From: Narthecium ossifragum
Taxonomy: Eukaryota > Streptophyta > Magnoliopsida > Dioscoreales > Nartheciaceae
Reading direction: 5' to 3'
Length of the DNA stretch: 64,000 bases
Assembly: GCA_963920575.1 (NCBI GenBank)
Contig: OY986973.1
Span: 16,788,062 to 16,852,061, forward strand
Under the pieces are notes generated by a model that was given only the letters and a program-made list of their open reading frames with translations, was not told the DNA's origin and did no database searches. This document shows positions 3,239 to 61,930 of the stretch, in pieces. How positions within the stretch are numbered: position 1 is the first letter of the stretch; the number at the start of each line of letters is the position of its first letter. The translations under genes were made by a program, and so were the position numbers.

Positions 3239-3383
3239 GCCGTTTGAATTAAGGATAGAATAAGATTGTATAATAGATAAAATAAAAATTATGCATATAT
3301 CAAAGATAGTTATGTAAGATTTAAAAGAAAATATTAAATGTATAAATGAGGTTTATAAATGTTTATATCAATCCAAACGGACC
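3239..3383. mobile_element. Short AT-rich TIR element (MITE candidate)
   Basis: About 145 bp bounded by inverted GCCGTTTGAATT (left) and the complement of AATCCAAACGG (right). The interior is AT-rich and non-coding. No convincing TSD is visible, so superfamily and exact ends are uncertain. Confidence 0.4.
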
Positions 3384-3756
3384 ATTGCTATTTAAACACA
3401 TGCATCTTAGTATTCGGTCGCTCCGATCCACCAGTCCGTGTTTAATTATCTCACGACCAGAATACCGCAACACAGGAGAAATATAATATAATTTAGTCCA
3501 AAGAAGCGTCCACCATGCCCAAGTGCCCATCTCGCAATCAATCCTTCCAATAGCATTTTGTTTGGGGATCAAGAAAGGAAAAAATATAACATGCATCAGT
3601 CTAAGGATCGACCAAAAATGGAAAAAATATGACTAAGCACAATCAAGGTTTGACTTGGAACATAACAACAAGTACAGTCGACAATAGCCGGCTCTTGTCT
3701 TGTCCTTGGCGCAGCAAGTCGGCTGCGACGCAACACATATCTAAGAGAGATCCTCA
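3384..3756. other. No gene seen
   Basis: Mixed-composition sequence between two TIR elements. Neither strand shows a recognisable protein, RNA gene or repeat. Confidence 0.5.
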
Positions 3757-5066: not shown

Positions 5067-5297
5067 CCTCGCCGTCTTCATTCCGCGAGTAGAGAATGGC
5101 TACACAGATGCATTAACTAGGTTTGGTCGATGGGCCTATGCTAGATTTTTCTGGGCGCATGATTCTGGGTTATCTCTCCCAGCTCATACATCAGGATTGG
5201 TCCTCTGATGTTGATGCATGTTATATCTTTTAATTTCACCGAGCTTATTTGTTCAAAAAAACAGTTTTAATGTGACCAATTGGTCCCATAAATTTAT

Positions 5298-15899: not shown

Positions 15900-17471
15900 T
15901 GATGTGCTGTCGCAGGCACTCAAAAATAAAACCAATACTTTTTAAAATTAATGTAGTAGTGCGAGTACGAGTCGATCCCACGAAGAGTGTTTAGCCTAGT
16001 TTTGTACTTAGTGAACAAAGATGTGGGGTTTTAAATGTGAGGAAAAAATAAAGAAATAATCTAAAGTGAAGAGTTGAATTAAATCAAGAGAACAAACCTT
16101 AGTCTGAGTCAACATCCACCATCGGAATCCAACAACTGATCATAGATGCAAGTATCAATCAATTCATACCATGAATATTCATAGTCCGAATTCAATTTGA
16201 ATCTCTCCTCAATCTTAGTTAATTAGAAACAAGTGATCCAATTAACCCTAACTACTAAACAACCTAAGACAAGCGTTATATATTTAATCTAGTAGCAGCC
16301 TTAAGAATAGGGAGATCGATGAAGCTAAACAACACAAGCACAAGTGGTTGCATTTAATCTAGTCAAATATCCTTCCTAAGATCTATTAATCTCTGAAACG
16401 CAGTAAATCAATAGATCTCAGTTGCTTCGCAGATTAGAGGGATCAAACAATTACGGATTTAATATCCAACCTAGCAGTAGATCACCATGAAAAATAAACT
16501 AGTAGGCCTCCTAGCAATGAGACAAGACAATCATGAAAATTTAATCTCAGAAGAACATCCAATACTCACGTATAAACTGAACAATAAAAATAAATTAGAT
16601 CTCACAGTTTCATTAATTCCAAGGCTTCAGTTTCCTCGACCAAGAATTAAGATTTAGCCACGCAGGGCCATCGAGAACAATCCTCCAAAAAATTTCATTA
16701 AACAAGAGAAAACCTAGGAAAATATAAAGGAGAAGAAAAGAGCAGCCAAAAGTGTCCAAGAATCCCCGTAATAATCTCCCAAAGAAGTCTATTTATAGGC
16801 TTTTATAAAACCCTAACTCGGATTAGATCTCAGCCCTTGATCTTTCCTGCAGAACCAAAAGGGATCGATCCCCTTTGGAAAAAGGATCGATCTTCTTCGT
16901 CCGTGAACTCAGTATTTGAATTTTGCCCGACCAAGATCGATCTCCTTTTAAGAGGGGATCGATCTCTTTATTCCGGATTTCAACTTTCTCATCACGGTCG
17001 ATCCTCGCATCGACCCTAAGAGCGTATATTTTTGACAGAGGCTGACGGTCGATGTGGCGGTCGATTTGACGGTCGACCGTGGGTATTTTTCATCTATGGT
17101 GCATAAGGGATCGATCCCCTTTGAAAAGCGGATCGATCTCCTTTCCTCTGCATGTTCCTTCTGCTGTTCTGTCCTATGCTTGTTGTAGTAAAAACACTAT
17201 AACTTTCTCTAAAAAGCTCAAAATCACGAACCGTAAAATTTTCCAGAAACTAGACTTCAAGAGCTTTCCATCCATATATGAGGCATCATCTTGTTCTTCA
17301 TCAGCAGGTACAGATTAATCTTTAAAGTACTCTTTTCAGCTTCTTTTCGACTTAAGGACTTCAATTGCATCCTAAATTAAAATATAAGAATAATGAGTGT
17401 ATTTAGGAACTAAATAAGCACATGAGACTAAGTATTAAGGGATAAAAATATAATATTATGCATCATCATCA
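15900..17471 (-). mobile_element. Gypsy-2 solo LTR, copy 1
   Basis: Begins TGATGTGCTG, ends CATCATCATCA, perfect 5-bp TSD GCGTC at 15895-15899 and 17472-17476. 1572 bp. Minus orientation is inferred from the TATA-like CCTATAAATAG (complement of about 16787-16799). No internal region remains. The Gypsy assignment rests on sequence blocks shared with the Gypsy-3 LTRs, not on coding sequence. Confidence 0.85.
16860..17150. promoter_or_regulatory. U3 palindrome array, mixed GGGATCGATCCC and GGTCGA types
   Basis: About a dozen sites. Outer blocks have GGGATCGATCCCCTTT and AAAGGATCGATC; the centre (16998-17090) has CGGTCGATC, GCATCGACC and CGGTCGACCG, next to a GACAGAGGCTGACGG spacer. The array ends about 60 bp from the TATA box on the minus strand. 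Confidence 0.6.
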
Positions 17472-17474
17472 GCG

Positions 17475-17610
17475 TCTCCGGCGACCTTCGTCGGAGAAGA
17501 TCCAAAAACCTCGAAAAATGCCCAAAAATACATGAAAAACCCCGGAATCAATAAGGAAGCTTATCTACACCAAGAAGAAGAAAACAAATCAATGATTACC
17601 ACTCAAATCA
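17475..17610. repeat. 175-bp direct repeat, copy 2 (partial)
   Basis: Matches 15724-15860 with small differences, then diverges into a T-rich region with no gene (17610-17880). Confidence 0.6.
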
Positions 17611-18105
17611 AGAAAAAATCCGACGAAAATCCCTTTTTTTCTTCTATGTTTTTGTCCGTTTGTTTCTCTCTCAAACTCCTCCTTCTAATAGCTTTTAGTG
17701 AGAAATAGTGGGGAGAAGAAGGGGATAAGAAGGGGAAGGAGATTAGTAAACTTGGCCGGCATTTGCCTGAAAAATGGTCTATGTCGGCGGTGAAAACTGA
17801 GAATTTGCAAAACAAACCCTAAAAAACCCATAGTTACACGAAAATCCTCATAAATTTACAAAAAGCCCCCCTAAAATATGATTTAACCATGGTTAAGTTA
17901 CTTAACCTCACGGGAGTTGATGGAAGGGTATATATGTGATCACTTAAACTTTTGAGGGTATATATGAAAATATGAAAAATATAGGGGTAAATACGTATTT
18001 TCAATTTTATTTGAGGATATATATGTAGAAAACCCTTTAAAAAAACAGAAGAAACGTTCAAGGACTTAAAACTATTGAATAGAAAGATGAAATTGGAAAA
18101 AAAGT

Positions 18106-18128
18106 GTATATATATATATATATATATT
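18106..18128. repeat. (TA)n microsatellite
   Basis: About 11 TA units. Confidence 0.9.
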
Positions 18129-18310
18129 CTTAGTTGAGCCAATCTGACTTAGACATCCGATCTACACCTCCTGGACCTAACTCAAATGCATTCATCATAG
18201 ACATAAGATTGCAATGACTACAAGCATGATACAAAATTTGAAATAATTAATAATCTGCCGCCATAATTTTTTTACGCTCTCAATGCGCAGACTCACATAT
18301 GTTGACAGAG

Positions 18311-19190
18311 GGTGAGCATTCGGTTCTCGGTTCGGTTCTCGGTCCAGAACCGAAGAACCGAACTTTCTTCGGTACAGTTTTTTGAGAACCGAACCGAACC
18401 GAAGTTACATGAGAACCGAACCGAACCAAAATTTTCGGTTCCAAATTATTTAAAACCGAACCGAACCGAACTAGGTAAAGAACCGAACCGAACCAAAAAT
18501 TTCGGTTCCAGAACCGAACTGAAATTTGCTGTTCCGGAACGGCGTCGAAGGATCTTGGAGGTCGAGCTCGGGACGGCGTCGGAGCTCCGAGGGAGAGGGA
18601 GGTCGTCCGGTTCGGCGGTGAGGCGAGGTCGGAATGGGGTGAGCTCGCCGTGGGCAGCGGGGATCGGGTGCGGGGTGGGTCGCCGGGTTCGATGGAGGCG
18701 ATGAGGATCTTGGAGGTCGAGCTTGGGACGGCGTCGGAGCTCCGAGGGAGAGGGAGGTCGTCCGGTTCGGTGGCGAGGCGAGGTCGGAATGGGGTGAGCT
18801 CGCCGTGGGCAGCGGGGATCGGGTGCGGGGTGGGTCGCCGGGTTCGATGGAGGTGATGGCCGATGGGTTCCCAGGGATCGGGTACTTGAACGCAAAGAAT
18901 AGGGGAGGGTGGCTGAGTGCTGATAGTGACCTGGTTAGCCATTATGGACAATTGGAGTTTGGAGCGCCGATTAGTTAGACCGGCTGAGACTTAGACCATA
19001 AATCAGTATAAAATGTTCGGTTCTTCGGTTCTGACCCGAACCGAACCGAATTTTTTTTAAAGAACCGAACCCGAACTTTTCATACATGCAAAGAAACGAA
19101 CCGAACCGCAAAACCGAAAAAACCGAACCGAATGGACCGAACTAATTCGGTTTAGTTCGGTTCTTCGGGTTCGGTTCGGTTCTGCTCACC
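18311..19190. mobile_element. hAT-like element rich in GAACCGAACC repeats
   Basis: Inverted ends GGTGAGCA...TGCTCACC. The 8-bp flanks TGACAGAG (18303-18310) and CCACAGAG (19191-19198) agree at six of eight positions, consistent with a decayed hAT TSD. Subterminal sequence is packed with 'CGGTTCGGTT' on one side and its complement on the other. The centre is a GC-rich tandem duplication. It opens long frames on both strands, but these simply repeat with the duplication and show no domain. Confidence 0.65.
18551..18860. repeat. 155-bp tandem duplication
   Basis: Two nearly identical units start at 18551 and 18706 ('GATCTTGGAGGTCGAGCT'). They lie in the core of the hAT-like element. Confidence 0.85.
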
Positions 19191-19218
19191 CCACAGAGTC
19201 CAAGCCCATGTGAGCTCA

Positions 19219-20312
19219 CGGGAACTTGATTAATTTCTTGACTATCATGTCAGCCAACCAATTTGTGTCACTCCAGAATTCACAACCAAGGTTAGGTCTG
19301 ACTCTGTTCAGACCGGAGCATAATTGGATGAGGAAACCGGAATTCAAGGAGGCCCTCTTGCGTGCGTGGAGCTTTCCCTGTCGAGGCTCCAATCAGTTCC
19401 AATTTGTCACCATAATTAAGGCGATCAATAGGGTAGTTAAAGGGTGGGACATACGTAGTAGAGCTGTTGACATCTTTGGGGCAGGGGAGCGGCAGTAACA
19501 AAGCTTGGAGGATCTATATACACTAGAAAATAATGACATACTCACTGAGGAGAAGGAGAGCCTTATGCACCAGCTCAAAGAGCAATGGGAACAGACCGCG
19601 CAGGAATTGAGGGCCTCGCAGCGGGTGAGGAAGGAATGGATCATTACCGAGGATCGAAACTCAGCTTTCTTTCATCAGATGGTTGACAGCAGGAAACGTA
19701 AATCGAATCAAAGAAATTGTGATCATGGAAGGTGAGGCAAGCACTGAATTTGCTAGAATTGGCCGGATACTCCAACAACATTTCAACAAGGTGTGGCATG
19801 ATGTTGCAGACACTACACCTCAGTTGAACATTAAGCTACATGTCGTTTCTAATGGCTGGAAGGATCATCTTATTGCGGAGGGTACAAGTGAGGAGATGAA
19901 GAACAAGTGTTTCGTTTGCCTAGGAACAAGTGCCCCGGACCGGACAGACTACCGGCGGAGTTCTGCATCCATAATTGGGAGGTGATTGGCTCGGACTTTA
20001 CCCGATTGGTTCATATTTTCTTCCATAGCTGTAGGATGCCACTCTCATGGCACGAAACATTCATATCCTTGGTTCCGAAGTGTAAATTCCCCAGAACTGT
20101 CAAAAAATTTCGACCGATCAGCCTTTGCAACGTAGGATATAAAGTTGTTACCACTATCAAGGCTACACAGCTGAAAGGGATCTTTGGAGACATGATTGGG
20201 CTAGAACAGTCTGCGTTCATTGAAAGGAGAAGTATATTAGACAACATTGCTACAACAAAGGAGGTAGTACAGTCAGTGGCTTTAGCTCCTAAGACACGCA
20301 GTGTCATACCCT
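19219..20312 (+). pseudogene. L1-like LINE fragment (linker and N-terminal reverse transcriptase)
   Basis: Three overlapping frames together read as one damaged LINE ORF2 piece. First comes the region after the endonuclease (KAINRVVKGWDIRSRAVDIF, then a coiled-coil-like stretch, then EWIITEDRNSAFFHQMVDSR; the usual plant motif is 'W...GDRNTKFFH'). Then the RT finger region: KCPGPDRLPAEFCIHNWEVI, SWHETFISLVPKCKFPRTVK, FRPISLCNVGYKVV and EQSAFIERRSILDNI, all hallmarks of L1-type RT. The catalytic YADD block and everything after it are absent. Endonuclease is also missing. Frame changes near 19500, 19730 and 19920 show decay. No poly-A tail is attached. Confidence 0.88.
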
Positions 20313-21997
20313 GACTCAGAAAACCCATCCGGTTTGGGGCGTGAGGATTCCAAAAGTAATCAATCCATCTATGGCGCATTTATAATAAGATATTACATCT
20401 AAATAATTCAATTAATATGGGGTCAAAAATGTAATTTCTAATAATTTCACTGAAGATCACTACACATCAAACATATACAAAGTCTCTGATACAAAACTGA
20501 ACCTCAAAAGTATTAGTATAACTATATCCAAAATCCTTACAGAAAAAAATTATACATTTATAACATCTAACAGGAAAACAAAACCCAAAGTACTCAAGCA
20601 CCTCCAGAGGTTGACGTGCCACCAAGAGCATGTCCAGCTGGTGCTACGAAATAAAAGCTGACGCCTGCACCTGCAAAACGCAGTCCGGGTAGGAGTGAGC
20701 GATAAGCTCAACAGGATTCTATTCTACGTCATACTGAAAGGAAAGGGAACAATAAAGTCCCAGGTTCCACCTCATCTTTAGGGGAAAACACACGTTACGA
20801 ACACCGCCTACCCCAGGGCACGCACTATGATGACCTACACTGTCAATTGTCGTCTCTCTCAATAACCAAGCACTCCAGCGCTGAAACAACAGGGTGTAGG
20901 ACACAGGGTGGTTCCTTACTTCCCCTAAAACTGAAGTTGAGACTGAGCTTGAAACATAGAACGACTTCTACACCTCAATCAGAGTAATTACAACCAACTA
21001 GATAATAATCTTGAAAACATAAGATTATCATGACAATTCAATCCTAAACCTTGCTATCCAGTCTCAGTCCTACGGCTAGATCCGAGTTGCCCGAGCCCTC
21101 GGATCGGCGATCAACCCATCACCTACGCCTAGCCTAGAATGCATCTAATGCAATCAATTACATGTATGCTCACACACACACATAATATCTAACGCTCATA
21201 TTAGACCAGGCCAGCTTCCCTGCTTGCCTGATCTGAGTTGACATAGCTAGCTAGATCCAATCCAGTTTAGCCCAACCACCGTCAGTTCAACGGGTGCGGC
21301 GGATGCGTCTCTTCAACGGGTGAGATTGTTGGCCTGCAGTCCACGACCAATAATCTCCCCCAAACGGCTACCCTGAGATTCAAACATGCGACCTCACTCT
21401 TATACCACGTGTCATTTCAGGATTCACGAGGTAACCACTTGTACCAAAACTCCTGAGTGATAGTAGAGGCGCCCATATTACCTTTACCATAGAGCCGCAG
21501 TCGACCACCCTCGATCGACCACCATCATCATATAGCAGCGCAAATCCCCACACTAAACGGTGGGTGGACATGAGGGGCTGTGCCACACGGGCGCCGCAGG
21601 TGGGACGCCCAAGAGCCCACACCCTGCAATGGGCCGCAACCCAACGAACAAGGGTGAAACAAAGGGAGATGATGTCTAGGCCTGCCACCTCATATGGCCC
21701 GCAAGCTAGGGCCTGCAGCCCACGACCAATAGACGTATTCGTCGCACCACTGACCGGTGCCTCGGTCATATGCCCCGCTCGCCACTCGTCACACACTGAG
21801 CCCGCACCGTGCACTGAGTCGCGCTCCCTAGCCTTACCAGTGCCATGGCATGCCCCATGCCATGCCCGTACTGCACCACACCAACCACACACCGCACCCT
21901 TGCCATGCTACGCCCCAGCGCCACGGCCACACAACGCTCCGCAACGCGCCACGCCATCCGTAAGCAACCTCTCCTGGACTTCAATCAAACACCAACT
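20313..21997. repeat. Unclassified repeat, probably LTR-derived
   Basis: Starts TGTCATACCCTGACTCAG, of the 'TGTCAT/CRCCC' form common at plant Gypsy LTR starts, and contains 'GGGTAGGAGTGAGCGATAAGC', another phrase often seen in such LTRs. The 3' boundary and a second LTR are not visible, so this is unproven. The GC-rich part (21380-21990) gives open frames on both strands, rich in H, A, R and C, with no domain. Confidence 0.4.
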
Positions 21998-23005
21998 TGT
22001 TAGCCCAGATATTGTTTTGATGATGTCAATATATAATTGATGATAAAACAATGATTTAATATTATTATCCCTTAAATTGGAAAGCATTAAAATCATATTT
22101 TATGAGTTTTTGTACTGACGGACGATGCATGGATCGACCGTGAGGTATGGCGGTTGATGTGTGGATCGACCGGGGAAGATGTTTTGGGAAAATAGTTTGA
22201 CGGTCGATGTGACGGTCGATGGACCGATCCACCATGGCCTATGTGACTTGGCTCAAAGGGAGCGACGGTCGATCGGTGTATCGACCGTGGGAAGCGATTT
22301 TCCAGACAGAGCCTGACGGACGATGTCACGGTCGATGGGACGGTTGACCGTGAGGCGTGACGGTCGATAGGTGGATCGACCGTGGCTCAAGGAAAGCCTA
22401 GCGGACGATGTCACGGACGATGCGATGGTCGACCGTGAGCCCAAAAAAGAGCCGTTAAAGAGTCGTTGCAGTAACAGAAACTAGCCGTTGAGAGGCTAAT
22501 TGGAGGGCTTTGAAGCTCAGCTATATAAGGGAAGTTGTAGCAAACTTGGCAGGAACTAAGAGGGAGCTAAGGAATTATTGTAATCATATTCTAGCAAGTT
22601 TTTATCTCTTATTAGTGAGCTAAACCTTTGTAAAACTACTTCAAGTGTGAAGTAGACATTGAGAGAAATATCCAAGAGAGAGCTTGGAGAGATTGTAAGG
22701 TTGCCAAGCATCCGTAAGCTTGGTGGATAGGTTGCCAAGCACCCGGAAGCTTGGAGGAAAAGCTTGTAAGAGGTCTTGCAAGTAGTGGAACCTCAAGGAG
22801 TGCCTTGAGAGAGTGGACGTAGGCAAGGTTTGCCAAAGTGCAATCTCTCTATCTCTCTATCTCTCATCTCTTATCCTTGTTTTAACATAGATTTTCTGCT
22901 CTTATCATTGCAAACATATTACTTGATTAGACCCCTCCTACTCAGATTTTCTTAATTGATTTTATTGTTTAAAGCCTAAGATAAACCCCCTCTCTTAGAG
23001 CTTCA
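21998..23005 (+). repeat. 5' LTR of Copia-3
   Basis: 1008 bp. U3 array at 22119-22440; TATA box CTATATAAGG at 22521-22530; then a leader with the repeated phrase 'GGTTGCCAAGCACCCG' (22689, 22732). PBS follows the terminal CTTCA. Confidence 0.9.
22119..22440. promoter_or_regulatory. U3 palindrome array, GGTCGATC/GGTCGACC type
   Basis: About a dozen sites such as GGATCGACCGTG, ACGGTCGATGG and ATCGACCGTGG, plus a GACAGAGCCTGACGG spacer at about 22305. Ends about 80 bp before the TATA box. Confidence 0.6.
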
Positions 23006-23006
23006 A

Positions 23007-23019
23007 TTGGTATCAGGGC
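23007..23019 (+). other. Primer binding site of Copia-3
   Basis: TTGGTATCAGGGCT begins one base after the LTR end; one mismatch to the initiator tRNA-Met site TGGTATCAGAGCT. Confidence 0.82.
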
Positions 23020-23260
23020 TAGGTCTCTAATTTTGTGGTGTAACAACCCTTAGAGGATCCTAAATCAATATAGAAATCATTGAGGGACAATCCACAAATA
23101 GGCCACCATACTTCAATGGTTCAAACTATACATATTGGAAGAATAGAATGGAAATATTTATAAAATCCATGGATTATAAAGCATGGATGGTTATTGAGGA
23201 TGGTCCAACTATTCCTACCAAAATTCTCGAACGAAAGGAAGTGCCTAAGGCTAAGAGTGA

Positions 23261-24896
23261 TGATGTTTTGTCGTAGGCACTCAAAAATAAAACCAATACT
23301 CTTTAAAATAAATGTAGTAGTGCGAGTACGAGTCGATCCCACGAAGAGTGTCTAGCCTAGTTTTGTGCTTAGTGAACAAAGATGGGGGGTTTTAAACGTG
23401 AGGAAAACAGTAAAGAAATAATCTAAAGCGAAGAATTGAATTAAATCAAGAGAACAAATCTTGGTCTGAGTCAACATCCACCATCAGAATCCAACAACTG
23501 ATCATAGATGCAAGTATCAATCAATTCATACCATGAATATTCATCGTCCGAATTCAATTCGAATCTCTCCTCAATCTTAGTTAATTAGAAATAAGCGATT
23601 CAATTAACCCTAACTACTAAACAACCTAAGACAAGCGCTGTAGATTTAATCTAGTAACAGCCTTAAGAATAGAGAGATCAATGAAGCTAAACAACACAAG
23701 CACAAGCGGTTGCATTTAATCTAGTCGAATATTCTTCCTAAGATCTAACAATCTCTGAAACGCAGTAGATCATTAAACCCTAGTTGCTTCGCAGATTAGA
23801 GGGATCAAACAATTACGGATTTGATATCCAACCTAGCAGTAGATTGCAATGAATAATAAACTAGTAGGCCTCCTAACAATTAGACAAAACAACTATGAAG
23901 ATTCAATCTCAGAAGAACATCCAATACTCATGTATAAACTGAACAATAAAAATAAATTAGATCTCACAGTTTCATTGATTTCGAGGTTTCAGTCTCCCCG
24001 ACCAAGAATTAAGGTTTAGCCACGCAGGGCCATCGAGAACAATCCTCCAAAGATTCCCATAAACAAGAGAAAACCTAGGAAAAATATAAAAGAGAAGAAA
24101 AGAGCAGCCAAAAGTGTCTCAGGATCCCCCCTTGATAACCCTAAGTATCCTATTTATAGCCCCAAAGTCTCTCCATCCACGGATTAGATCTAAACCGTTG
24201 ATTTTCTTCACTGAAAAAGTCCGATCGATCGGACTTTGGGTGTCGGATCAATCGGTTGCGTAAAAATCCTCCGTCTCTGGCTATTCCCGAGTCCGATCGA
24301 TCGGACTTTAGGTGTCGGATCGATCGGACAGTATGATAGATAGATGGATCGATCGAACTGTGTTCCTCTAGAAAGCATACGTTCTGTAAGGCTTTAATTC
24401 CCAAGTCCGATCGATCGGACTTTAGGTGTCGGATCGATCGGACTCAGTAGGATGGATGGAGGGATCGATCGGACTGTGTACAGCTGAAAAGTATACGCTC
24501 TGTCAGGTTTCTGCATAGTCGGATCGATCGGACTCTAGGTGTCGGATCAATCAGACTTTCCAGCGTATTTACTGTTCTGCCATCCAGACTGCGCCATTGG
24601 TACTAAAATTGCCGTAACTCCCTCTAGAAAACTCGGAATCACAAACCGTAAAATTCTCCAGAATCTAGACTTCAAGAGCTTTCTAACCATATGTAGCACA
24701 TCATCTGGTTCTTCATCAGCAGGTACAGATTAATCTTTAAAGTTGATCCATATACTCTTTTCAGCTTCTTTCGAACTTAAGGACTTCAATTGCATCCTAA
24801 ATCAAAATATAAGAATAATGAGTGTATTTAGGTACCAAATAAGCACAGGAGACTTAGTATTAAGGGATAAAAATATAACATTATGCATCATCATCA
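23261..24896 (-). mobile_element. Gypsy-2 solo LTR, copy 2
   Basis: TGATGTTTTG...CATCATCATCA, perfect TSD AGTGA at 23256-23260 and 24897-24901. 1636 bp; closely similar to 15900-17471 in the leader and distal parts, but its palindrome array is of a different type. Inserted inside the gag gene of Copia-3, so younger than that element. Confidence 0.9.
24220..24560. promoter_or_regulatory. U3 palindrome array, CCGATCGATCGG type
   Basis: Repeated blocks of AGTCCGATCGATCGGACTTT paired with GTGTCGGATCGATCGGACT, with spacers containing 'ATACGCTCTGTCAGG'. About ten sites. TATA-like sequence lies about 60 bp away (complement of 24149-24160). Confidence 0.6.
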
Positions 24897-25778
24897 AGTG
24901 AGCTCACCCGTACTGATTTGAAAAATTTGCAAGTCAATGCCAAAGCCAAAAATTTCTTATTTTGTGCGCTTAGCCCTGATGAATTTAATAGAATTTTAGC
25001 TTGTAAATCGGCTAAGAAAATATAGGAGAAGCTTGAGATAACTCATGAAGGAACTAGCCGAGTAAATGAGTATAAGATTAGCATGCTTTTTAATGATTAT
25101 GAGTTATTTGCCATGAAGGATGATGAAGATATAAATGAGATGTTTATTCGCTTTACCAATATCATAAATGTTCTTGATTCTCTTGGTAAAAGCTATACTA
25201 ATGATGAGATGGTAAGAAAGATTCTTAGATGTCTACCTAAGACATTGGATCCCAAGGTGACAGCAATTGAAGAAGCTAAAGATTTAACCAAGCTGTCCCT
25301 TGATGAGCTAATGGGTTCTCTCATGACATATGAGATGAACATGGAGAGGAGCAATGATGGAGAAAGGAAGAAAAAGAAAACCATTGCTTTCAAGTCAACA
25401 TGCAAGGATTCATCCGACTCAAGCGATGAAGATGATGATGAGGAGATGCAAAAGATCACAAGAAGAATCCAACGAATCATCAAGAATCAAGGAAAGAAAA
25501 ATTCCAAAGGTGAAAAAGGAAACTCCTCTTCTTACTTAAAGAAAATTACTTGTTATGAGTGTAGGAAGCCCGGACATTACATGTCGGATTGTCCAAAGCT
25601 CAAGAAATCTTCAAAGAAGAAGAAGAAAGCCAAGGAAGAAAGTGACTCGAGCTCCATCTCCGAAGAAGAAGAAGAAGAAGAAGAAGAAAAAGAAACTGCA
25701 AATCTGTGTCTAACTGCTTTCGGAATAAAAGAAAATAAAATTGACAAGTGGAGGCGCAAGGTTTTTAAAGGAGGATAA

Positions 25779-26422
25779 CAATTTGGTTTAAAAAGGTAAT
25801 GGAGGTATGTCTTAATTTTCGATATATGTCTCCTCCATTACATCTTCTTATTCCATTTTAATTAACTAATTTCATGTTAAAAAATGGTTTAAGAAAGCCT
25901 TTTGTGTGAAGAATTGATTACTTTTTAAAATGACTGTTTTGATTGTAAATCTTCATTTGGTATATTGTTTTGAGATGATTTTTAAAACCTTCTATTTTAG
26001 CTTCTCTTACGAAATGTTTTTGTTGTTTTATTTTGACTCTTCTTCCCCCTCTACCAAATCGTTTTGATAATGTCAAAGAGGGAAAAGTATTGTGATATTA
26101 GTTTTTAAAAGCTCTTAAAACCTTATATTCTACATATTTGAAGCATTTTGATGTTTAAAGGATTTACTGGAGATTTCATGAGAATATAATTCATACTCAA
26201 ATATCATGTCTTATTTTTCTATACAAAGAGGTACATAGGTCATATTTTGCACTTTCATATCTTTTGACCTATAATCAAGCCCGATGTATCTTTTTAGTGA
26301 TATATGACTTGCTGCCTCAGAGAAATTCACTATAGAACATAGTTTATGAGGTAAATTGATGCATAAATTAAGAGTGAGATTTCAAGGTTTTATCATCACA
26401 ATTTAAAAGGGTTGCCATCATC
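25779..26422 (+). other. Copia-3 3' non-coding region
   Basis: AT-rich, no ORF. A likely hairpin pairs 'AATGGAGG' (25799) with 'CCTCCATT' (25831). Near 26065 the phrase 'GATAATGTCAAAGAGGGAAA' resembles the true PPT region and may be an old PPT copy. Confidence 0.5.
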
Positions 26423-26436
26423 AAAAAGAGGGAGAT
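26423..26436 (+). other. Polypurine tract of Copia-3
   Basis: AAAAAGAGGGAGAT, immediately before TGTTAGCCC of the 3' LTR. Confidence 0.85.
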
Positions 26437-35463: not shown

Positions 35464-35846
35464 TGACTGTACCATTGACCGACGGAAGTACCGCATAAGA
35501 GAGGTCGAATCCACAGAGAGACAGACAGAAAATATCCAAAACGCAAATAACAATGAATTGAAGACAAACGAGAACTTGAGAATTAACTAAATAAGATCAA
35601 AGGATTTAGTGATAATGTAAGGTTAACTAGAGATATCAGGATTTTGATAAAGCTAGGCTTCAGGAATCACTTCACTAGGATTTAGGTTCTTCTCTTCTCA
35701 ATGGTTCATATAATACTCAGTTAAGGGATTCACATCCCAATCACCTTAACCGGAAGATAAGGAACTATAAACCTAACAAAATATATAAATGTCTCTTCCT
35801 ACGAATGATTCTTCCTTATTATAATTCTAACTTCATCCAACCCAAA

Positions 35847-36090
35847 CCTAAGAATATAAAATACCGGCTGTCACTACAGGCAACATATAACAAAAGTTCA
35901 TCGGGACAAAGCCCTACCTCTATCTAACCAGATCTCTAAGAATACACAATACCAACTCTCACAATCGGCAATGTATAGCAAAGATTTCACGGATAGAGCC
36001 CCAACCTTGTCTTACCAGATCCCTAAGAATACACAATACCAGTTGTCACTACGGGCAATGCATATCAAAGGTCTCGCAAGACTCGGTAGG
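35847..36090. repeat. Tandem repeat in the Gypsy-3 LTR leader, three units of about 87 bp
   Basis: Units start at 35847, 35935 and 36022 with '(C)CTAAGAATACACAATACC', then 'CTCTCAC..TCGGCAAYGYATA'. Other Gypsy-3 LTRs have two units (46569/46656, 54902/54990, 59899/59988). Confidence 0.75.
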
Positions 36091-36480
36091 AGAATCAAAA
36101 GAGAAAACTATGGGATTATAAGATCATGAAAGAAGCATGACTGGATTCATAATATTAATCATCCACATAGAAATCTATAATCTGAAAATAATATTTGAAG
36201 ATCCAATACATAGAAAAGAGTTTAACAATGAAGATTAAAAACTATGAACCATTGTTGGAGAAGAAAACCTAATCCTCGCTAGATCATCCGTCCGCCATGC
36301 CCGCGGATTACTCGGCCATGGATGGAGATGTCTTCATCTTCTTTCTTTGGGAAACGTCTAGAAAGAGCCTCCAAAAACGTCCAAGAAGTCCCCCTTAACT
36401 TACCCTAACTTTCCTATTTATAGGGTCTAAGAATTAGCAAACTCAGGTTAAGTTTAAACCCGTTATAAACTCCTGGCTGA

Positions 36481-36733
36481 TCTGGCGGTCGACTGTGAGA
36501 CCTTGACGGTCGACCGTGAGGTGCACAATTTATTTTGACAAGCTGCGGTCGATCTTCGCATCGACCATCGGAAGTGTTTTTCTTGACAGAGGCTGACTGT
36601 CGATGCCACGGTCGATGCTACGGTCGACCGTGGCATCTTACGGTCGATCGTGAAGATTTTTGAGCTCCACGGTCGACCGTGAGGATTTTTGAGTGCTACG
36701 GTCGACCGTGAGATCTGACAGTCGACCGTCACT
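36481..36733. promoter_or_regulatory. U3 palindrome array, CGGTCGACCG type
   Basis: About ten sites (CGGTCGACCGTGAG repeated, GCGGTCGATC, GCATCGACC), with the GACAGAGGCTGAC spacer at about 36585. About 57 bp from the TATA-like sequence. The other Gypsy-3 LTRs have TGATCGATCA sites instead. Confidence 0.6.
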
Positions 36734-37132
36734 ATTCATTCAGCACTACGCACTGGTACGAAAAATATTGTAACTTCCTCTACGTAACTCGGAATCATGA
36801 ACCGTAAAATTCTTCAGAAAGTAGACTTCAAGAGCTTTCCAATGATATATGGTACATCATCTGGTTCTTCTTGGAAAGATACAGTTTAATCCTTGAATTT
36901 GACCCATATAATCTTTTCAGCTTCTTTCAGCTCCAATTTCCTGCATTTTCCAAGCAACTATGTGAAGTAACATATACTATAAAAATAGTGCTAAAGAAGT
37001 TGATTAAGGGTGAAGATATAGCAATTTAGATGGTTATATGGTTGTTCAGAATGCACTTTCATGCACTCATCAGCCAATCACCTCACCGGCCACTTGACGC
37101 CCCTTGAAATGTGTCGTTAAGTATATCAAAGG

Positions 37133-38802
37133 TGATCAAAACAAATTACCGGACTACTAATTAACTACAACGTAGTTAGTGGAAACACGGGTCGAATCCT
37201 CAAGGAATTGGATGGTTGAACTAACAAATGCAATATAATCTCTAAAATAATTGGAAACAATTAGATTGATTCTTTGAGTTTTCTAACTAAATTATTCTAA
37301 AAACAATTAAGGCGAAAATTTATCCAGAAAGAAATCCTAGGAAAATCCAATTCGAAGTAAGGTCTAAATATTTTCTTGATGAATCAAGATGAATGACACT
37401 CAAGGAATGGTCTAAATTGGGGATCGACGAGCGTAGGATTAGTAGCGCTCGCCGCTAATGAGATGTCGGGTTAGGATCATCTCATTGGTGAATTACAAGG
37501 TTAAGATACATGATCGAGGCTTTAATTCGATCATAGCTCAATAATTGCTAGGTTATGGTCATATTGTTGGCAATTAATCAAGGCTTTGTATAAATAACGT
37601 ATTGGGTTGAGTTGGGTTTAATATCTCACTCCAACCCACCATCGAAGACATGAATGGTAAATAGGATAGTCATGGCTTGGGGTGGTTCTAGCATCTCAAG
37701 ATCCTATTCTTAGATGAAGGATTCATTCCGTAGAGTTGGCCATGGTTCTAGCATAACCTCTTCTTTGAGGAATTTAATCAAACATCTAGCAAGCATCTAA
37801 TTTTCATACAATCACTTGCAAGAGAAACATTCAACAATGTGTTTCATTAAAGAAACAAAGGATTACATGTGAATTCATATAAATACATATCAAGAGAGTC
37901 ATTACATCAAGAAATAAAAGAGCAATCTAAGAAAGAAACCTAAAGACATCAAGGAATTCCCAAGGAGATGGGGTTTAGCTACTCATCTTAGGTAGGAGAT
38001 TCATGGAAGAGGAGGCTTGACCCATCTTCTCTATCAAAATCCACCTTTGGAGCCCTAAATCCCTAAGAATTAGAGGAGAAATCCAAAGAGCTAAAGGAGG
38101 GAAGAAGGCTGGAGAAAAGGATGGAAAAAGATGGAAAAAGGATCCCAAAATAAGAACCAAAACCTTTATTTATAGGCCTTAGGTCGTGGATCATCAGATT
38201 ACATTTGAACCATCCGTTTTTACCCGTCAGCCGGTCTTGGATCGATCCAAAATAGGTTTGGATCAATCCAAGATTTAAATCTTTGGTTTTCTAACGGCTT
38301 GAATCGATCCAAAATAGGCCTGGATCGATCCGATGTGCAAACTGCAAAAGAGGCTATGGAAATGGGTTGTTGGATCGATCCAGACAAATTTGGATCGATC
38401 CAAAAGGATATGGATCGATCAAAACAAGTCTCGATCGATCCATTGTACAATGGTTGAAAAGGTGTTCTCTGGAAATTGTTGTTGGGTCGATCCAAACTCA
38501 CAGTGGATCGATCCAACGTGCAAAACCCAATATGGGCCTCTGGAAGGAAGGTATGGATCGATCCAACCTCACAGTGGATATATCCAACCTCATAGTGGAT
38601 CGATCCAACGTATTCGATCGCTCCAAATATGATTATTTTCACTTTTTCTTCATCTTTTGCATTTATTCACCATGAAATGAATGGAGGTATTCTTCGGACT
38701 CCTTGTACCTGAAATGCACTAACAAACTATTAGTAATACACCGCTCGAATACTAACAAAACTAAGTTGAAGGGTTATATTATGCGCATTTTGCGATTTAT
38801 CA
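37133..38802 (-). mobile_element. Gypsy-5 3' LTR
   Basis: Plus strand TGATCAAAAC...GCGATTTATCA. On the minus strand the start TGATAAATCG resembles Gypsy-4 and is preceded by a purine-rich TTGTTGGGGAAGCAG, a PPT, so this is a 3' LTR whose internal region lies to the right and is mostly lost. No TSD. TATA-like CCTATAAATAA on the minus strand near 38165-38177. Confidence 0.65.
38231..38618. promoter_or_regulatory. U3 palindrome array, GGATCGATCC type
   Basis: About 15 sites, mostly TGGATCGATCCA, with paired spacing. One block (about 38505-38530, read on the minus strand) shares TTTTGCACG-TGGATCGATCC with Copia-1. About 55 bp from the TATA-like sequence. Confidence 0.6.
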
Positions 38803-46173: not shown

Positions 46174-47610
46174 TGATGTCACTCAAATGTGTCTCGCACA
46201 GCGGTCGCGGTGCAGTACAGTATAAGAGAGGCTGATCCCACAGGGAAACAAAAGAAAGGATCCAGAAACATAGGTAATAATGTATCGAAAACAATTAAGA
46301 GCGTAAAAGTTGTGAAAGTTAGATCGGAGATTTAATGGTAAAATAAACTTAACAAAAGAAATCAGAATTTGGATGAGGCTAGGCTTCTGGAATCCTTCAC
46401 TCGGACTTGGGTTCTTCTCTTATCAATGGTTCATGCAAAACTCAGTCAAGGGATTCACATCCCAATCACCTCGACTCGAAGATATGGAATTATGAATCTG
46501 ATAAAATATAAATGTCTCTTTCTATGTTTCGTTCTTCTCATTGTAACCCTAACTCTGTCCTACCAGAACCTAAGAATACTAGATACCGGCTGTCACTATA
46601 GGCAACGCATAGCAAAAGTTTCACGGGATAAAGCCCTAACCTTGTCTTACTATATCCCTAAGAATACACAATACCAGCTGTCACTACGGGTAATGCATAG
46701 TAAAGATTTCACGAGACCATGTAAGAGAGTGAAGAGAGATAACTTTGGGATCACAATATCATAAAAGAAACATGACTGGATTTATAATAATATTGAACTA
46801 CAAAGCAATCTATAAAGATCCAATACGTATATAGAGTTTAAACAATAAAGATCAAAACATGAACCAATGATAGAGAAAGAAACTCTCGTCCTTGCTTCGT
46901 CATCCATCTGCCACGCCTGAAGATTACTCATCCATGGATGGTGGATTTGGTGTCCTTCCTCCTCCAGAAAAGTCCTCAAAAGCTCTCTTTGAAAAACCCT
47001 AAGTTGCCTATTTATAGCCTCCAAAAGATCCCCACTCGGATTAGATCTTGGCCCTTTATTTTGCTAAGCCGCCATATAATGATTGATCATTTAGGGCAAG
47101 ATGATTGATCATTTCATCCCGTAGAACTGGCTGCGCCCGAGGAAGATTGATAATTTTAACTGAGATGATTGATCATTTGAAACATGGCTCTCTGTCATCT
47201 CTAGGTGAATAAATGATCGATCATCATAGGGGCAGAAGATCGATCATTTGTGCTGCGTATTTTCTCTTTTGCCATTCAGACTGCGCCATTAGTACTAAAA
47301 GTGGCGTAACTTTCTCTAGAAAACTCGGAATCAGAAACCATAAAATTCTTCAGAAACTAGACTTCACGAGCTTTCCAACCATATATGGAATATCATCTGG
47401 TTCTTTATGAACATGTATAGTTTTAATCTTCCAAGTTGACCCATGTAATCTTTTTTGCAACTTTTAGCTCCAATTTCCTGCATTATTCAAACAACTATGT
47501 GAAGCAACATATAAATATAAAAATAGTAATAAAGATGTTGAATAAGGATAATAATCCAGCATATAAAATGATTATAAGACTATTCAGAGTGCCCTTTCAT
47601 GCACTCTTCA
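46174..47610 (-). mobile_element. Gypsy-3 solo LTR
   Basis: TGATGTCACTCAAATGTGTC...CATGCACTCTTCA, 1437 bp. Flanks ACTAC (46169-46173) and ATTAC (47611-47615), a TSD with one mismatch. TATA-like CTATAAATAGG on the minus strand at about 47008-47017. Two-unit leader tandem repeat at 46569-46725. Confidence 0.82.
47080..47250. promoter_or_regulatory. U3 palindrome array, TGATCGATCA type
   Basis: About seven sites, several decayed to TGATTGATCA. About 60 bp from the TATA-like sequence. Decay is consistent with this being an old copy. Confidence 0.55.
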
Positions 47611-47717
47611 ATTACAATTGTTAGATTATTGTTAATTAATTCAAGATATTACTGCAAGATTCTATGAGGATTTTATTGTCCTAGCTCCTTATGTTAATTT
47701 GCTGTCTCTAAATTAGA

Positions 47718-54509: not shown

Positions 54510-56152
54510 TGATCAATGTCACAACACAGCGGTGCAGTGTAGCATAACATAAGAGAGGTCGAACCCACAGAGAGACAAGCAGAAAACATCCAAAACGCAA
54601 ATAACAATGAATTAAAGACAAACGAGAACTTTAAGAATTAACTAAATTAGATCAAAGGATTTAATTATACCTAAGATTAACTAAAGATATCATGATTTTA
54701 ATAAGGCTAGGCGTCAGGAATCACTTCACTCGGACTTAGGTTCTTCTCTTCTCAATGGTTCATACAATACTACTCAGTCAAGGGATTCACATCCCAATCA
54801 CCTTAACCGGAAGATATGGAACTATAAACCTAACAAAATACATAAATGTCTCTTCCTACAATTGATTCTTTCTTTTATAGCTTTAACTTCATCCTACCAA
54901 AAGCTAAGAATATACGATACCGGCTGTCACTACAGGCAACGTATACCAAAAGTTCATCGAGACAAAGCTCTAACCCTATCTTACCATACCTCTAAGAATA
55001 CACAATACCAACTCTCACAATCGGCAATGCATAGCAAAGATTTCACGAGATAAAGTAGGTAAACAATAGATATACACATGGGATTACAAGATCATGAAAG
55101 AAGCATGACTAGATTCATAATATCATTCATCCACATAGAAATCTATAATCTGAAAATAATCCTTGAAGATTCAATACATAGAAAAGAGCTTAACAATAAA
55201 GATTAAAATCTATGGACCATGATGAAGAAGAAACCCTAGTGCTCGTTAGTTTATTCGTCCGCCATGCCCACGGATTACTCGACCATGGATGGAGATTTTT
55301 TCATCTTCTTCCTTGTTTTTCTCCCCTCCAAACTCTGCCAAAAAGCTCTCCTTGAATAGCCCTAAGTTGCCTATTTATAGCCACCAAAAGTGTGCAACTC
55401 GTATTAGATCTGTACTCTTGATTTTTGCTCAGCCACCGTATATGATCGAATATCATAGAGGAAGATGATTGATCATTTCATCCCGTAGAAGTGTCACGCC
55501 CCGATGATGATCGATCATCTCATAGGGCATGATCGATCATTTGAAACATGGCTCGCTGTCATCTCTGGCTAAATAAAATGATCGGTCATTATAAGGGAGA
55601 TGATTGATCCTTTGAAGTATAACGCTTTGTCACATAAATGATCGATCATTTATAGGGAGAAGATCGATCGTTTTATCCCAAAATCACTCCAGTAGCATAA
55701 GGGATCAATCTTTTATGGGTAGATGATCGATCCTTTGAAAATATGCTCTCTGTTAGCTCTGGCGCATCAAATGATCGATCATTTGTTCTGCGTATTTTCT
55801 CTTTTGCTATTCAGACTGTGTCTTTGATACTAAAATTGCCGTAATTTCCTCTAAAAAACTTGGAATCACGAACCGTAAAATTCTTCAGAAACTAGACTTC
55901 CAAAGCTTTCCATTGTATATTGGACATCATCTGGTTCTTCTTCATCAGCTATAGGTTAATATTTCAAGTAGACCCTTGTAATTTTTTCAGCTTCTTTGCC
56001 CCCTTTTAGCTCTAATTTTCTGCATTTTTCAAGCAACTATGTGAAGTAACATATAAATATAAAAATAGTACTAAAGTGGTTGATTAGGGGTGACAATATG
56101 GCAATTGAGATGGTTATAAGATTGTTCAGAGTGTACTTTCATGCACTCGTCA
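54510..56152 (-). repeat. 3' LTR of Gypsy-3
   Basis: 1643 bp. The first bases (TGATCAATGTCAC) lack about 9 bp present in the other LTR. TATA-like CTATAAATAGG on the minus strand at about 55370-55380. Leader tandem repeat 54902-55050. Confidence 0.85.
55441..55784. promoter_or_regulatory. U3 palindrome array, TGATCGATCA type
   Basis: About 11 sites, often in pairs 10-12 bp apart ('TGATCGATCATTTATAGGGA' then 'GATCGATC'). Spacers contain CTCTGT(C/T)A. About 60 bp from the TATA-like sequence. Confidence 0.6.
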
Positions 56153-56165
56153 CACCCCCCAACCA
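56153..56165 (-). other. Polypurine tract of Gypsy-3
   Basis: Minus strand CTGGTTGGGGGGTG precedes the LTR start TGACGAGTGC. A second copy is at 61158-61170. Confidence 0.82.
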
Positions 56166-59493: not shown

Positions 59494-59498
59494 AATTT

Positions 59499-61157
59499 TG
59501 ATATCGCTCAAATGTGTCACAACACAGCGGTGCAGTGTAGCATAATGTAAGAGGGGTTGAACCCATAGAGAGACAACCAGAAAACTTCCAAAACACAAAT
59601 AACAATGAATTGAAGACAAACGAGAACTTAAGAATTAACTAAATTAGATCAAAGGATTTAATTATACCTTAGATTAACTAAAGATATCAGGATTTTAATA
59701 AGGCTAGGTGTCAGGAATCACTTCACTCGGACTTAGGTTCTTCTCTTCTCAATGGTTCATACAATACTACTCAGTCAAGGGATTCACATCCCAATCACCT
59801 TAACCGAAAGATATGGAACTATAAACCTAACAAAATACATAAATGTCTCTTCCTACGATTGATTCTTCCTTTTATAGCTCTAACTTCATCCTACCAAAAG
59901 CTAAGAATACACGATACCGGCTATCACTACAGGCAACGTATACCAAAAGTTCATCAAGACAAAGCCTTAACCCTATCTTACCAGACCTCTAAGAATACAC
60001 AATACCAACTCTCACAATCGGCAATGCATAGCAAAGATTTCACGAGATAAAATAGGTAAACAATAGATATAACCATGGGATTACAAGATCATAAAACAAG
60101 CATGACTGGATTCAGAATATCATTCATCCACATAGAAATATATAATCTAAAAATAATCCTTGAAGATTCAATACATAGAAAAGAGCTTAACAATAAAGAT
60201 TAAAATCTATGAACCATGATGAAGAAGAAACTCTAGTTCTCGTTAGGTTATTCGTCCGCCATGCCCGCGGCTTACTCGGCCATGGATGGAGATTTCTTCA
60301 TCTTTTTCCTTGTTTTTCTCCCCTCCAAACTCTGCCGAAAAGCTCTCCTTGAATAGCCCTAAGTTGCCTATTTATAGCCTCCAAAAGTGTGTAACTCGGA
60401 TTAGATCTGCACCCTTGATTTTTGCTTAGCCGCCGTATATGATCGATCATCATAGAGGAAGATGATCGATCATTTCATCCCGTAGAAGTGTCACACCCCA
60501 ATGATGATCGATCATCTTAAAGATCATGATCGATCATTTAAAACATGGCTCTCTGTCATCTCTGGCTACATACAATGATCGATCATTATAAGGGAGATGA
60601 TCGATCCTTTGAAGTATAACGCTCTGTCACATAAATGATCGATCATTTATAGGGAAAAGATCGATCATTTTATCCCAAAATCACTCCAGTATCATAAGGG
60701 ATCAATCTTCTATGGGTAGATAATCGATCCTTTGAAAATATGCTCTCTGTTAGCTCTGGTGCATCAAATGATCGATCATTATTCGGGATGATCGATCATT
60801 GGTTCTGCGTATTTTCTCTTTTGCCATTCAGACTGTGCCTTTGATACTAAAATTCCCGTAACGTCCTCTAAGAAACTTGGAATCACGAATCGTAAAATTC
60901 TCCAGAACTAGACTTCCAGAGCTTTCCAATGGTATATGGTACATCTGGTTCTTCTTGAGTAGGTACAGGTTAATATTTGAAGTAGACCTATGTAATCTTT
61001 TCAGCTTCTTTTAGCTCCAATTTCCCGCATTTTCCAAGCAACTATGAGAAATAACATATAAATATAAAAATAGTACTAAAGTGGTGGATTAGGGGTGACT
61101 ATATGGCAATTGAGATGGTTATAACATTGTTCAGAGTGCACTTTCATGCACTCATCA
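59499..61157 (-). repeat. 5' LTR of Gypsy-3
   Basis: 1659 bp, TGATATCGCTCAAATGTGTC...CATGCACTCATCA. TATA-like sequence (minus) at about 60369-60378; leader tandem repeat 59899-60055. Confidence 0.88.
60438..60800. promoter_or_regulatory. U3 palindrome array, TGATCGATCA type (best preserved)
   Basis: About 12 sites (ATGATCGATCATT and variants) in pairs, spacers with CTCTGTC/CTCTGTT. About 60 bp from the TATA-like sequence. Confidence 0.6.
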
Positions 61158-61930
61158 CACCCCCCAACCAGCTTATTGCTAGTCTACTACAATTCAAAGC
61201 ACGTGAAAACATAATTAAGCACACCAACGGTATAAGGATGTAGACATGCATGATAAAAATTTTACCTTTACAGGTCAATAGTGTTTTGTATACTCATATA
61301 CATACACATACTACCAACACATGAAACGAGGTCGCCGGAGTGTGGCAACAACACATGAAGCTTTGCAGGGACATGGGGGTTCCATCCGTACGGTTTGATC
61401 ACTGGATGGGGCTTCGGCTACACCGGATCTGATGGTGGCGGCGCGGTGGAGGTCGTCACCGATGATCGTCGGTGAACGAGGATTCAACGGTGCTTGATCT
61501 TGTCGGGGCAAGGTACGTGAAGGTCTTGTGACCATTCTCGTGAGGTTTGATCTTGGGATCTCCCTCGGAACAAGGCGGAGTAGAGGAGGCCGAAACAGGG
61601 GAGTTCGCCGGAATTGGATCTCGGCGATCCAGGCGTCAATCGGGGTCGTGGTTGACCACGGTGGCTTCGGGGACGGTCGTCGAAGCTTCCTTGGTGGATA
61701 GGTGAAGAGGACGATGCCAGAGAACGGCCTTGGGGTGGTGGCTCGGGGATGAGTCGATGGGCTCTGGTTTTGAGCCGGGACGATGAAGGGTCGACTCGGA
61801 TCGAGCTGTGCGCGGGGAAGGAGGCGAGCCGCGGCTTGAGCGAATCCGGTAGGAGAGAGAAAACTCTAGGGAAAATTTGGAAAAATAGGTAAAAATCCAT
61901 AAAAATCCTGGAAATGTAGAAGGAAGGTTT
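61158..61930 (-). other. Truncated second Gypsy-3 internal region
   Basis: 61158-61320 matches 56153-56330 (PPT and following sequence); from about 61320 it becomes GC-rich with minus-strand frames lacking domains (similar in kind to 30500-31400). Ends where Gypsy-1 internal sequence resumes near 61930. Confidence 0.55.

Follow-up and report, generated by a model that had tools for sequence, protein, structure and literature searches.

Alternative versions of a probably exchangeable U3 promoter block in LTR retrotransposons of Narthecium ossifragum

Gypsy-2 LTRs at the locus

We have analyzed a stretch of 64,000 nucleotides of the genome of Narthecium ossifragum (Nartheciaceae; assembly GCA_963920575.1, contig OY986973.1, positions 16,788,062 to 16,852,061 of the forward strand), called here the window, and searched the 379.4 Mb assembly for relatives of its repeats. 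The assembly has 31 matches to PF00504, the domain of chlorophyll a/b-binding proteins, in keeping with a plant genome. The subject is the U3 promoter region of the long terminal repeats (LTRs) of retrotransposons, which in several families of the window carries arrays of short palindromes. Two of these families keep the labels Gypsy-2 and Gypsy-3 of the original prediction, a first reading of the sequence that had described two solo LTRs of Gypsy-2 with well-aligned ends and entirely different palindrome arrays between them. Both were confirmed with exact borders and target site duplications (TSDs). They are designated here by their arrays, A and B, and contain the following features.

15900..17471, minus strand: Gypsy-2 solo LTR of type A, with the TSD GCGTC on both sides, sequence read directly
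16771..17220, minus strand: putative exchangeable U3 block of type A (predicted start site, TATA box, array and about 60 bp beyond), delimited by near-fixed differences between A and B
16790..16798, minus strand: TATA box of Gypsy-2A, tatttatag on the plus strand
16861..17140, unstranded: array A, consisting of a GGTCGA cassette and three GATCGATC pairs with a spacing of 22 bp
16995..17101, unstranded: the GGTCGA cassette of Gypsy-2A, recognized by similarity to the Gypsy-3A cassette and to the Copia array
17222..17345, minus strand: conserved distal U3 core (AATCACGAACCGTAAAATT...), common to Gypsy-2 and Gypsy-3, at the right edge of the block
23261..24896, minus strand: Gypsy-2 solo LTR of type B, with the TSD AGTGA, sequence read directly
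24132..24635, minus strand: putative exchangeable U3 block of type B, edges placed by homology to 16771 and 17220
24216..24555, unstranded: array B, consisting of (C)CGATCGATCGG pairs with a spacing of 23 bp

Transcription of both LTRs runs on the minus strand, and their TATA boxes (tatttatag on the plus strand) lie at 16790 and 24151. The type B copy sits within a Copia element, upstream of its gag match. These are genuine LTRs of retrotransposons, with TG...CA ends, the two TSDs, and a primer binding site (PBS) and a polypurine tract (PPT) beside the LTRs of non-solo relatives. The PBS TTGGCGCCGTTGCCGGGGA and the PPT AAGCTAAGTGTGGGGGAATT adjoin, at the same LTR ends, many of the 75 Gypsy-2 copies described below. 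Presumably this combination fits the Athila/Tat group of the Ty3/gypsy elements.

When the two LTRs were aligned in 60-column windows, the leader was 85-98% identical up to 16728 and the distal part 87-96% after 17213. Identity fell to 76% at 16729-16788 and to 35-65% at 16789-17213. In the first LTR the array contains GGGATCGATCCC at 16861 and 17107 and GGTCGA(T/C)C at 16996 and 17071. The second had been said to contain only CCGATCGATCGG sites, which is slightly too strict, as besides those at 24221, 24293 and 24407 there are half-changed ones between them such as CGGATCGATCGG. The arrays do differ, but "entirely different" overstates it: they have in common a GRTCGAYC core and mostly a pair spacing of 20-23 bp, and mixed arrays exist.

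An exchange block within Gypsy-2

The genome searches gave from 2440 to 7166 first-look candidate copies each. We worked with the best-scored 40 per search, ranked by similarity to the window sequences, and the frequencies given here describe those copies and not the genome as a whole. By a motif rule, 75 Gypsy-2 LTRs were typed (37 A and 38 B), drawn from 40 copies of one search and 38 of the 40 of another. Among them L001 and L009 are the window copies, a second leader piece of L024 was ignored, and L053, L055 and L065 were excluded as they had no distal match. The labels mixed, C, masked and empty were assigned after reading the arrays.

The check set beforehand was whether array type follows the tree of the leader, and it does not. 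The leader tree (75 LTRs, 812 columns) needs 8 changes of array type (7-9 in the bootstrap), at least 3 of them forced by well-supported branches. The approximately unbiased (AU) test rejected type A as a clade for the whole leader (p 3.9e-4, 75 rows) and for its first 700 bases (p 7.8e-7, 74 of the 75 rows). Array type tracking the LTR phylogeny, the outcome that was to speak against exchange, is thus rejected for the leader; the intermediate arrays expected along with it do occur and are treated below. The 40 best-scored leaders closest to that of Gypsy-2A illustrate the same mixing: 9 belong to LTRs with A arrays, 20 with B, 4 with mixed arrays and 1 with a type C array (L087), that is, non-A arrays in 25 of the 34 readable LTRs. 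The other six comprise one without an array, one masked by Ns, one untyped and three not fetched.

The limits of the block were sharp. The fixation index (Fst) between A and B LTRs was 0-0.27 in the leader, 0.37 in the interval spanning the edge (16741-16786) and 0.67-0.80 at 16760-16870. On the distal side the values were 0.75 and 0.52 at 17161-17238, dropping afterwards to 0.01-0.10 up to the LTR end. The first near-fixed difference is at 16771 and the last one at 17220. Between the TATA box and the left edge there are about 27 bp, which puts this edge where transcription is predicted to start (the start being placed from the TATA box); the right edge abuts AATCACGAACCGTAAAATT. Sharp breakpoints had been expected at the borders of the array; they are present, but enclose the TATA box and the start site as well. 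The exchanged unit is therefore larger than the array alone, and comprises array, TATA box, predicted start site and about 60 bp. The promoter module proposed in the original prediction is real in this enlarged form: LTRs with different U3 regions have R-U5 in common, and the two parts recombine.

An even larger unit was considered and rejected. A first distal tree with a single type change had suggested that the array and the whole distal U3 travel together. This was caused by sites 17199-17222, beside the array, and beyond the array-adjacent sites the distal tree needs 9 type changes (66 of the 75 rows).

The block is inherited largely as a unit. Among the rows with a readable TATA box, the class of the TATA-proximal sequence corresponded to the array type in all 36 of type A and in 48 of the 49 of type B. 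The exception was L038, a B array with an A-type TATA region; in the B rows L025 and L074 the TATA subclasses were mixed, and L067 (type A), L037 and L098 (both type B) had an unreadable box. Presumed LTR pairs of the same element (same strand, within 20 kb) were 96-98% identical and agreed in type in 13 of 13 cases, a count that required both members to be among the retrieved copies and so favours agreement.

Sharing of the block with Gypsy-3

The window contains four Gypsy-3 LTRs, for which the same contrast between arrays had been described.

35487..37074, minus strand: Gypsy-3A LTR with a GGTCGACC-type block at about 36330-36785 (ends approximate)
36487..36735, unstranded: GGTCGA array of Gypsy-3A
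46174..47612, minus strand: Gypsy-3B LTR, with a TGATCGATCA array partly decayed at CpG
54517..56154, minus strand: Gypsy-3 LTR of type T, with a TGATCGATCA array at 55467-55780
59515..61159, minus strand: Gypsy-3 LTR of type T, with a TGATCGATCA array at 60441-60797
24151, 36415, 47009 and 60369: TATA boxes of Gypsy-2B, 3A, 3B and 3T, respectively

The contrast was reproduced. The 36-kb array (A) has CGGTCGACCG at 36507, 36621, 36670 and 36699, whereas the TGATCGATCA sites of the type T arrays span 55508-55772 and 60440-60789, and the 47-kb array (B, 47081-47245) retains one intact TGATCGATCA at 47214. Three of its five sites read TGATTGATCA, the decay expected of methylated CpG in an older copy. 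Two further observations concern the same elements. The LTR at 59515-61159 (region 59480-61180) is bordered by a PBS-like motif at one end and by a PPT-like one at the other, which suggests a tandem or recombined LTR-internal-LTR arrangement. Besides, an inverted end of a TGATCGATCA U3 array, 92% identical to 60820-60676, lies at 57615-57759 in the Gypsy-3 internal region between LTRs.

Leaders and arrays rank these LTRs in opposite order. Compared with the type T copies, the leader of the 36-kb LTR is the closer one (0.86-0.87, against 0.74-0.75 for the 47-kb LTR), but its array is the more distant (0.46, against 0.82-0.83). The Gypsy-3A block stops at the same conserved distal motif as the Gypsy-2 block. 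The 20 copies retrieved through the 3A array (of 40 scored) all had the 3A leader, 84-98% identical over about 265 adjoining bases. The result was different when the search was made with the Gypsy-3A leader only. Among the best 40 of 3203 candidates, 38 could be typed, and 31 of them carried the GGTCGA block (24 that were read, the window copy, 3 already fetched and 3 recognized by adjacency to array matches) while 7 of the 38 carried a Gypsy-2B-type block instead (L120, L124, L133, L139, L147, L148 and L150). L147 and L148, which share the same foreign block, are separated by about 7 kb and possibly belong to a single element. The two untyped matches had shorter leaders, and one is on the same strand as the L120 LTR, at a distance of 8.7 kb. 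L120 and L124 were read further and showed the Gypsy-2B-type block followed by the shared core and then by a Gypsy-3-type LTR end; junctions between Gypsy-3 leader and Gypsy-2B block are at C7:12279235 and C1:30658387.

The leaders of Gypsy-2 and Gypsy-3 had no match of at least 90 bases in the self-comparison of the window. Gypsy-2B-type blocks flanked by Gypsy-3 sequence, under leaders that do not align, therefore point to sharing from family to family and not to drift, whichever its direction. We consider it highly probable that the two Gypsy-2 LTRs of the window differ in which version they have of a single exchangeable U3 promoter block, about 450 bp long, which is swapped within Gypsy-2 and shared with Gypsy-3.

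That the types are simply old sub-families seen through noisy trees, with no exchange at all, is very improbable. Support is indeed weak for many inner branches of both trees, leader and distal, and on both of them type is clustered relative to shuffles, but such sub-families would not account for the AU rejection in the leader, for Fst steps within tens of bases or for LTRs that are chimeric between families.

Exchange of the distal core between families was suggested by identities and by the tree and was set aside, as it had no AU support. The tree left out 6 of 119 rows, and the AU test also the long-branched L097. In that tree the distal cores of five Gypsy-3A LTRs (L102, L106, L113, L115 and L118) group with Gypsy-2B, a hint of exchange at the same level of support.

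Grammar of the palindrome arrays

All the arrays share the GRTCGAYC core, and the types diverge in the arms outside it. GATCGATC and GGTCGACC occur 61 times in the window against 1.2 expected, about 50-fold, with a maximum of 4 in 30 simulated sequences. Only two of them (28571 and 32918) are single. The remaining 59 are clustered, 4 of these in the inverted array copy inside the Gypsy-3 element. In seven window arrays, 19 of the 25 distances of 14-34 bp were of 20-23 bp (4.8 expected if uniform), close to two helical turns. In the range of 35-60 bp, 6 of 15 were of 48-52 bp (2.9 expected). The Copia array contributed no distances of 20-23 bp to this count. The commonest spacing in the fetched copies was 22 bp for A, 23 for B and for L087, 22 for 3T, 21 for LX and for 3A, and 20 for L4 (LX and L4 are described below).

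In the A and B arrays together we found 147 one-base departures from GATCGATC against 457 intact sites. The commonest was A>G at position 2 (54 cases), giving GGTCGATC; transitions at CpG, C>T and G>A taken together, made up 24. The motifs are short and dense, and the units of an array change in concert (types A, B, C and T), the mixed arrays being exceptions. CTCTGT recurs on either strand in the array spacers of several families (13 of its 35 matches in the window) and is possibly a second binding site. More such arrays are present elsewhere in the genome: the Gypsy-2 LTR L016 (G000:C2:16770123-16771649) is embedded in one of GGTCGATCC units.

Cassettes common to several families and turnover within arrays

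Three further families of the window carry related arrays.

22132..22434, plus strand: GGTCGA array in a Copia LTR (LTR 21997-23005, partner LTR 26436-27438)
38237..38623, unstranded: GGATCGATCC array of a further LTR-like family, L4
671..774, unstranded: GGATCGATCC array of the repeat family LX, with a second copy at 2505-2608 and a spacer resembling that of L4

The Copia element (21997-27438) contains a Copia-type gag domain, PF14223, at 25026-25775 (E 1.2e-16). A repeat unrelated to the LTRs lies at 18300-19200, with CGGTTCGGTTC-rich ends and two direct repeats of 155 bp that are 97% alike.

With the palindromes included, the GGTCGA cassette of Gypsy-3A (36541-36712) aligned to the Copia array (22261-22439) with 128 identities, 41 mismatches and 13 gaps, and its part at 36546-36652 to Gypsy-2A (16995-17101) with 85 identities, 20 mismatches and 4 gaps. 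The 2A cassette (16994-17081) and Copia (22265-22352) gave 69 identities, 18 mismatches and 2 gaps. We then compared the spacers with the palindromes masked, against 200 shuffles of the letters within spacers. On the plus strand 3A and Copia scored z 7.1 forward, which 0 of 200 shuffles reached, and 1.8 reverse. For 3A against 2A the values were 7.1 and 6.2 (0 of 200 shuffles each), with 1.3 for a third 2A copy and 1.6 for L054, a copy without the cassette. Between L4 and LX z was 7.1, again with 0 of 200 shuffles as high. Gypsy-2B scored 6.9 and 7.0 against the 60-kb 3T array, values reached by 0 of 200 shuffles, with 2.1 for a third B array, and 0.4-2.1 against the 47-kb array. Gypsy-2A and Copia were weak forward (1.0-2.0), and the match behind their reverse values (4.0-7.4) is a leftover half-site.

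A palindrome grammar common to Copia and Gypsy might also reflect convergent selection for the same host factor, without transfer of sequence. The same core, often with the same pair spacing, does appear in different families, and L4 and LX share little with Gypsy-2 and Gypsy-3. The spacer matches amount to short pieces, of 16 bp between 3A and 2A and of 26 bp between 3A and Copia, and a match to the Copia LTR, present in 17 of the 3A arrays fetched, is missing in 3 of the 20. Against convergence stands the resemblance of the 3A spacers to those of Copia and 2A in the masked comparison, together with the alignments extending over 172 bp and 107 bp with the palindromes. We regard convergence as possible but rather unlikely.

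Arrays could also be retyped where they stand, by mutation, slippage or conversion between array units, with no exchange between elements. L087 is a case in point: it has type C palindromes (AGGATCGATCCT) in type B spacers, and its spacers alone scored z 19.5-27.6 against three B arrays. Its divergence in arms and spacers was 0.35/0.10 from L085, 0.23/0.11 from L080, 0.31/0.10 from L092 and 0.10/0.05 from L090, so that arms outpace spacers relative to these four arrays, which are themselves mixed. In the comparison with L085 the differences amounted to 2 of 64 positions in the core, 19 of 54 in the arms and 14 of 143 in the spacers. Several arrays counted as B have one odd site, and Gypsy-2B and Gypsy-3T share a spacer (57 identities, 24 mismatches) under different palindromes. 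Compared with three B-only arrays, however, the arms of L087 are no faster than its spacers (0.20-0.22 against 0.18-0.20). A forward homology between the 2A and 2B spacers was seen by eye but rejected, as z was at most 2.5, while the flanks are about 90% alike; in reverse a spacer piece of 15 bases is shared, with z 2.8-5.1 for the window copy of 2A (2A_win) and L007. Nor would change in place explain why the TATA-proximal sequence switches together with the array, or the presence of Gypsy-2B-type blocks under Gypsy-3 leaders. That the types change mainly in place is unlikely, a shade more so than convergence. Arrays change in two ways, by exchange of the block and by turnover inside the array.

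Several results weigh against exchange of a whole block as the full account. On the leader tree the types remain clustered, with 8 changes where shuffles give 25, and the leader Fst peaks of 0.19-0.27 at 16328-16447 indicate that mixing is incomplete. The AU test did not reject a type A clade for the distal part that follows the start of the core (p 0.26), and for the 157-bp distal core it kept a single Gypsy-3 clade (p 0.43; Gypsy-3A alone 0.19), both being short alignments. Where L120 and L124 have longer matches, the identity of their Gypsy-2B-type block to Gypsy-2B is only about 72-88%, which means that the transfer was not recent or came via an unseen relative. The mixed and retyped arrays imply that palindrome type can change without exchange of the whole block. 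Finally, the right edge requires a second switch of template, which a mechanism acting at R alone does not give.

A possible mechanism of exchange

Exchange of the block could be explained as follows. Elements of this Ty3/gypsy group would recombine often, and their LTRs outside the block would form a nearly mixed pool. The versions of the block may be too different to pair, and so would persist as alternative cassettes moving between two short conserved anchors, the segment from start site to TATA box and the distal core AATCACGAACCGTAAAATT. The first of these segments is alike in 2B, 3A and 3T (CCCTAA..TCCTATTTATAG in 2B and 3A), a similarity that could supply homology for switching. The movement itself might take place when reverse transcription, acting on two co-packaged RNAs, switches template, first at R, in the first strand transfer, and again in the conserved distal U3 core. 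Within the block, duplication of units and in-place retyping of palindrome arms would alter the arrays further. To judge from its position and spacing, the array may be an enhancer platform for a protein that binds GRTCGAYC, possibly as dimers on the palindromes, two per pair and about two helical turns apart.

The original prediction had favored replacement of a cassette or gene conversion. The exchange is borne out by the discordant trees, the sharp edges and the 7 of 38 cross-family blocks. As for its route, the left edge at the predicted start of R probably fits template switching at least as well as gene conversion. Swapping of the block at the DNA level, by gene conversion or ectopic crossing-over between LTRs, would produce just such a two-sided replacement between conserved anchors, the classic form of a conversion tract. 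In crapaud of Podospora the LTRs are disparate in 7 of 150 full copies, which was attributed to conversion or ectopic recombination (PMC10787394). The GGTCGA cassette, moreover, is oriented oppositely to transcription in Copia and in Gypsy-3A (the Copia TATA box being read on the plus strand), and is therefore not a product of same-sense RNA switching; for this inverted cassette DNA conversion would be our better guess. For the block itself, conversion should affect one LTR of an element, but L147 and L148 carry the same foreign block, the presumed same-element pairs agree in type, with the sampling bias already mentioned, and the left edge coincides with the predicted start of R. We find DNA-level swapping somewhat unlikely on balance, much as we do convergence.

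Comparison with known systems and significance

Exchange of LTR regulatory sequence between groups of elements has reportedly been seen in soybean, as LTR swapping (Du et al. 2010), and in the Ty1/Ty2 hybrid LTRs (Jordan and McDonald 1998).

There are also well-documented cases of a variable U3. The subfamilies of the Copia elements Tnt1, Retrolyc1 and Retrosol of Solanaceae vary in U3 with the remainder alike, which was termed modular evolution (PMC1838419). The LTRs described here are similar in having a U3 module over an otherwise similar element, and differ in that both edges are measured, the leaders do not align between families and the sites are paired palindromes. In crapaud most variation is in the half of U3 before the TATA box, R-U5 is conserved, recombinants are found and a template switch between co-packaged RNAs has been proposed (PMC10787394). 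It is, however, a single fungal family, and the accessible text describes no palindrome grammar or cross-family transfer. In transposition bursts of Onsen, most LTR recombination products fit a first template switch in R and one event lies within U3 (PMC5668417); these were members of one family in experimental bursts, whereas here the U3 blocks are diverged and two families are involved. The targets of VANC in VANDAL elements are dense short motifs in non-coding transposon DNA whose units diverge together, found also in an unrelated transposon (PMC5735166). The arrays of the window are likewise dense, with units changing together. Unlike them, the VANC motifs are bound by a transposon-encoded protein, and the word palindrome is absent from the text of that paper; here the elements are LTR retrotransposons and the arrays are known from sequence.

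Among open-licence PubMed Central titles and abstract starts, we found no description of paired-palindrome U3 blocks traded between families or common to Copia and Gypsy. U3 modules with a conserved R-U5 and co-changing motif arrays were already known; therefore, the novelty appears to lie in the paired-palindrome block traded between families.

A broader reading, which we hold to be a long shot, is that unrelated LTR retrotransposons, Gypsy as well as Copia, pass among themselves a single regulatory code made up of the palindrome arrays. By swaps and retyping the elements would then evade, or recruit, a dimeric DNA-binding protein that evolves fast, either a host silencer or an anti-silencing factor encoded by the elements, a counterpart of VANC in LTR elements, and the types would behave like idiomorphs in a shared pool.

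The block evolves separately from the rest of the element, so that the on-switch is decoupled from the LTR flanks. The sharp edges and the thousands of candidate copies make the mechanism of exchange directly testable, and the palindrome types are natural variants for asking which protein controls the elements. If families do share a pool of promoters, classification of families by their LTRs must treat the U3 block separately, and the same would hold for dating by whole-LTR divergence and for predicting the activity of elements.

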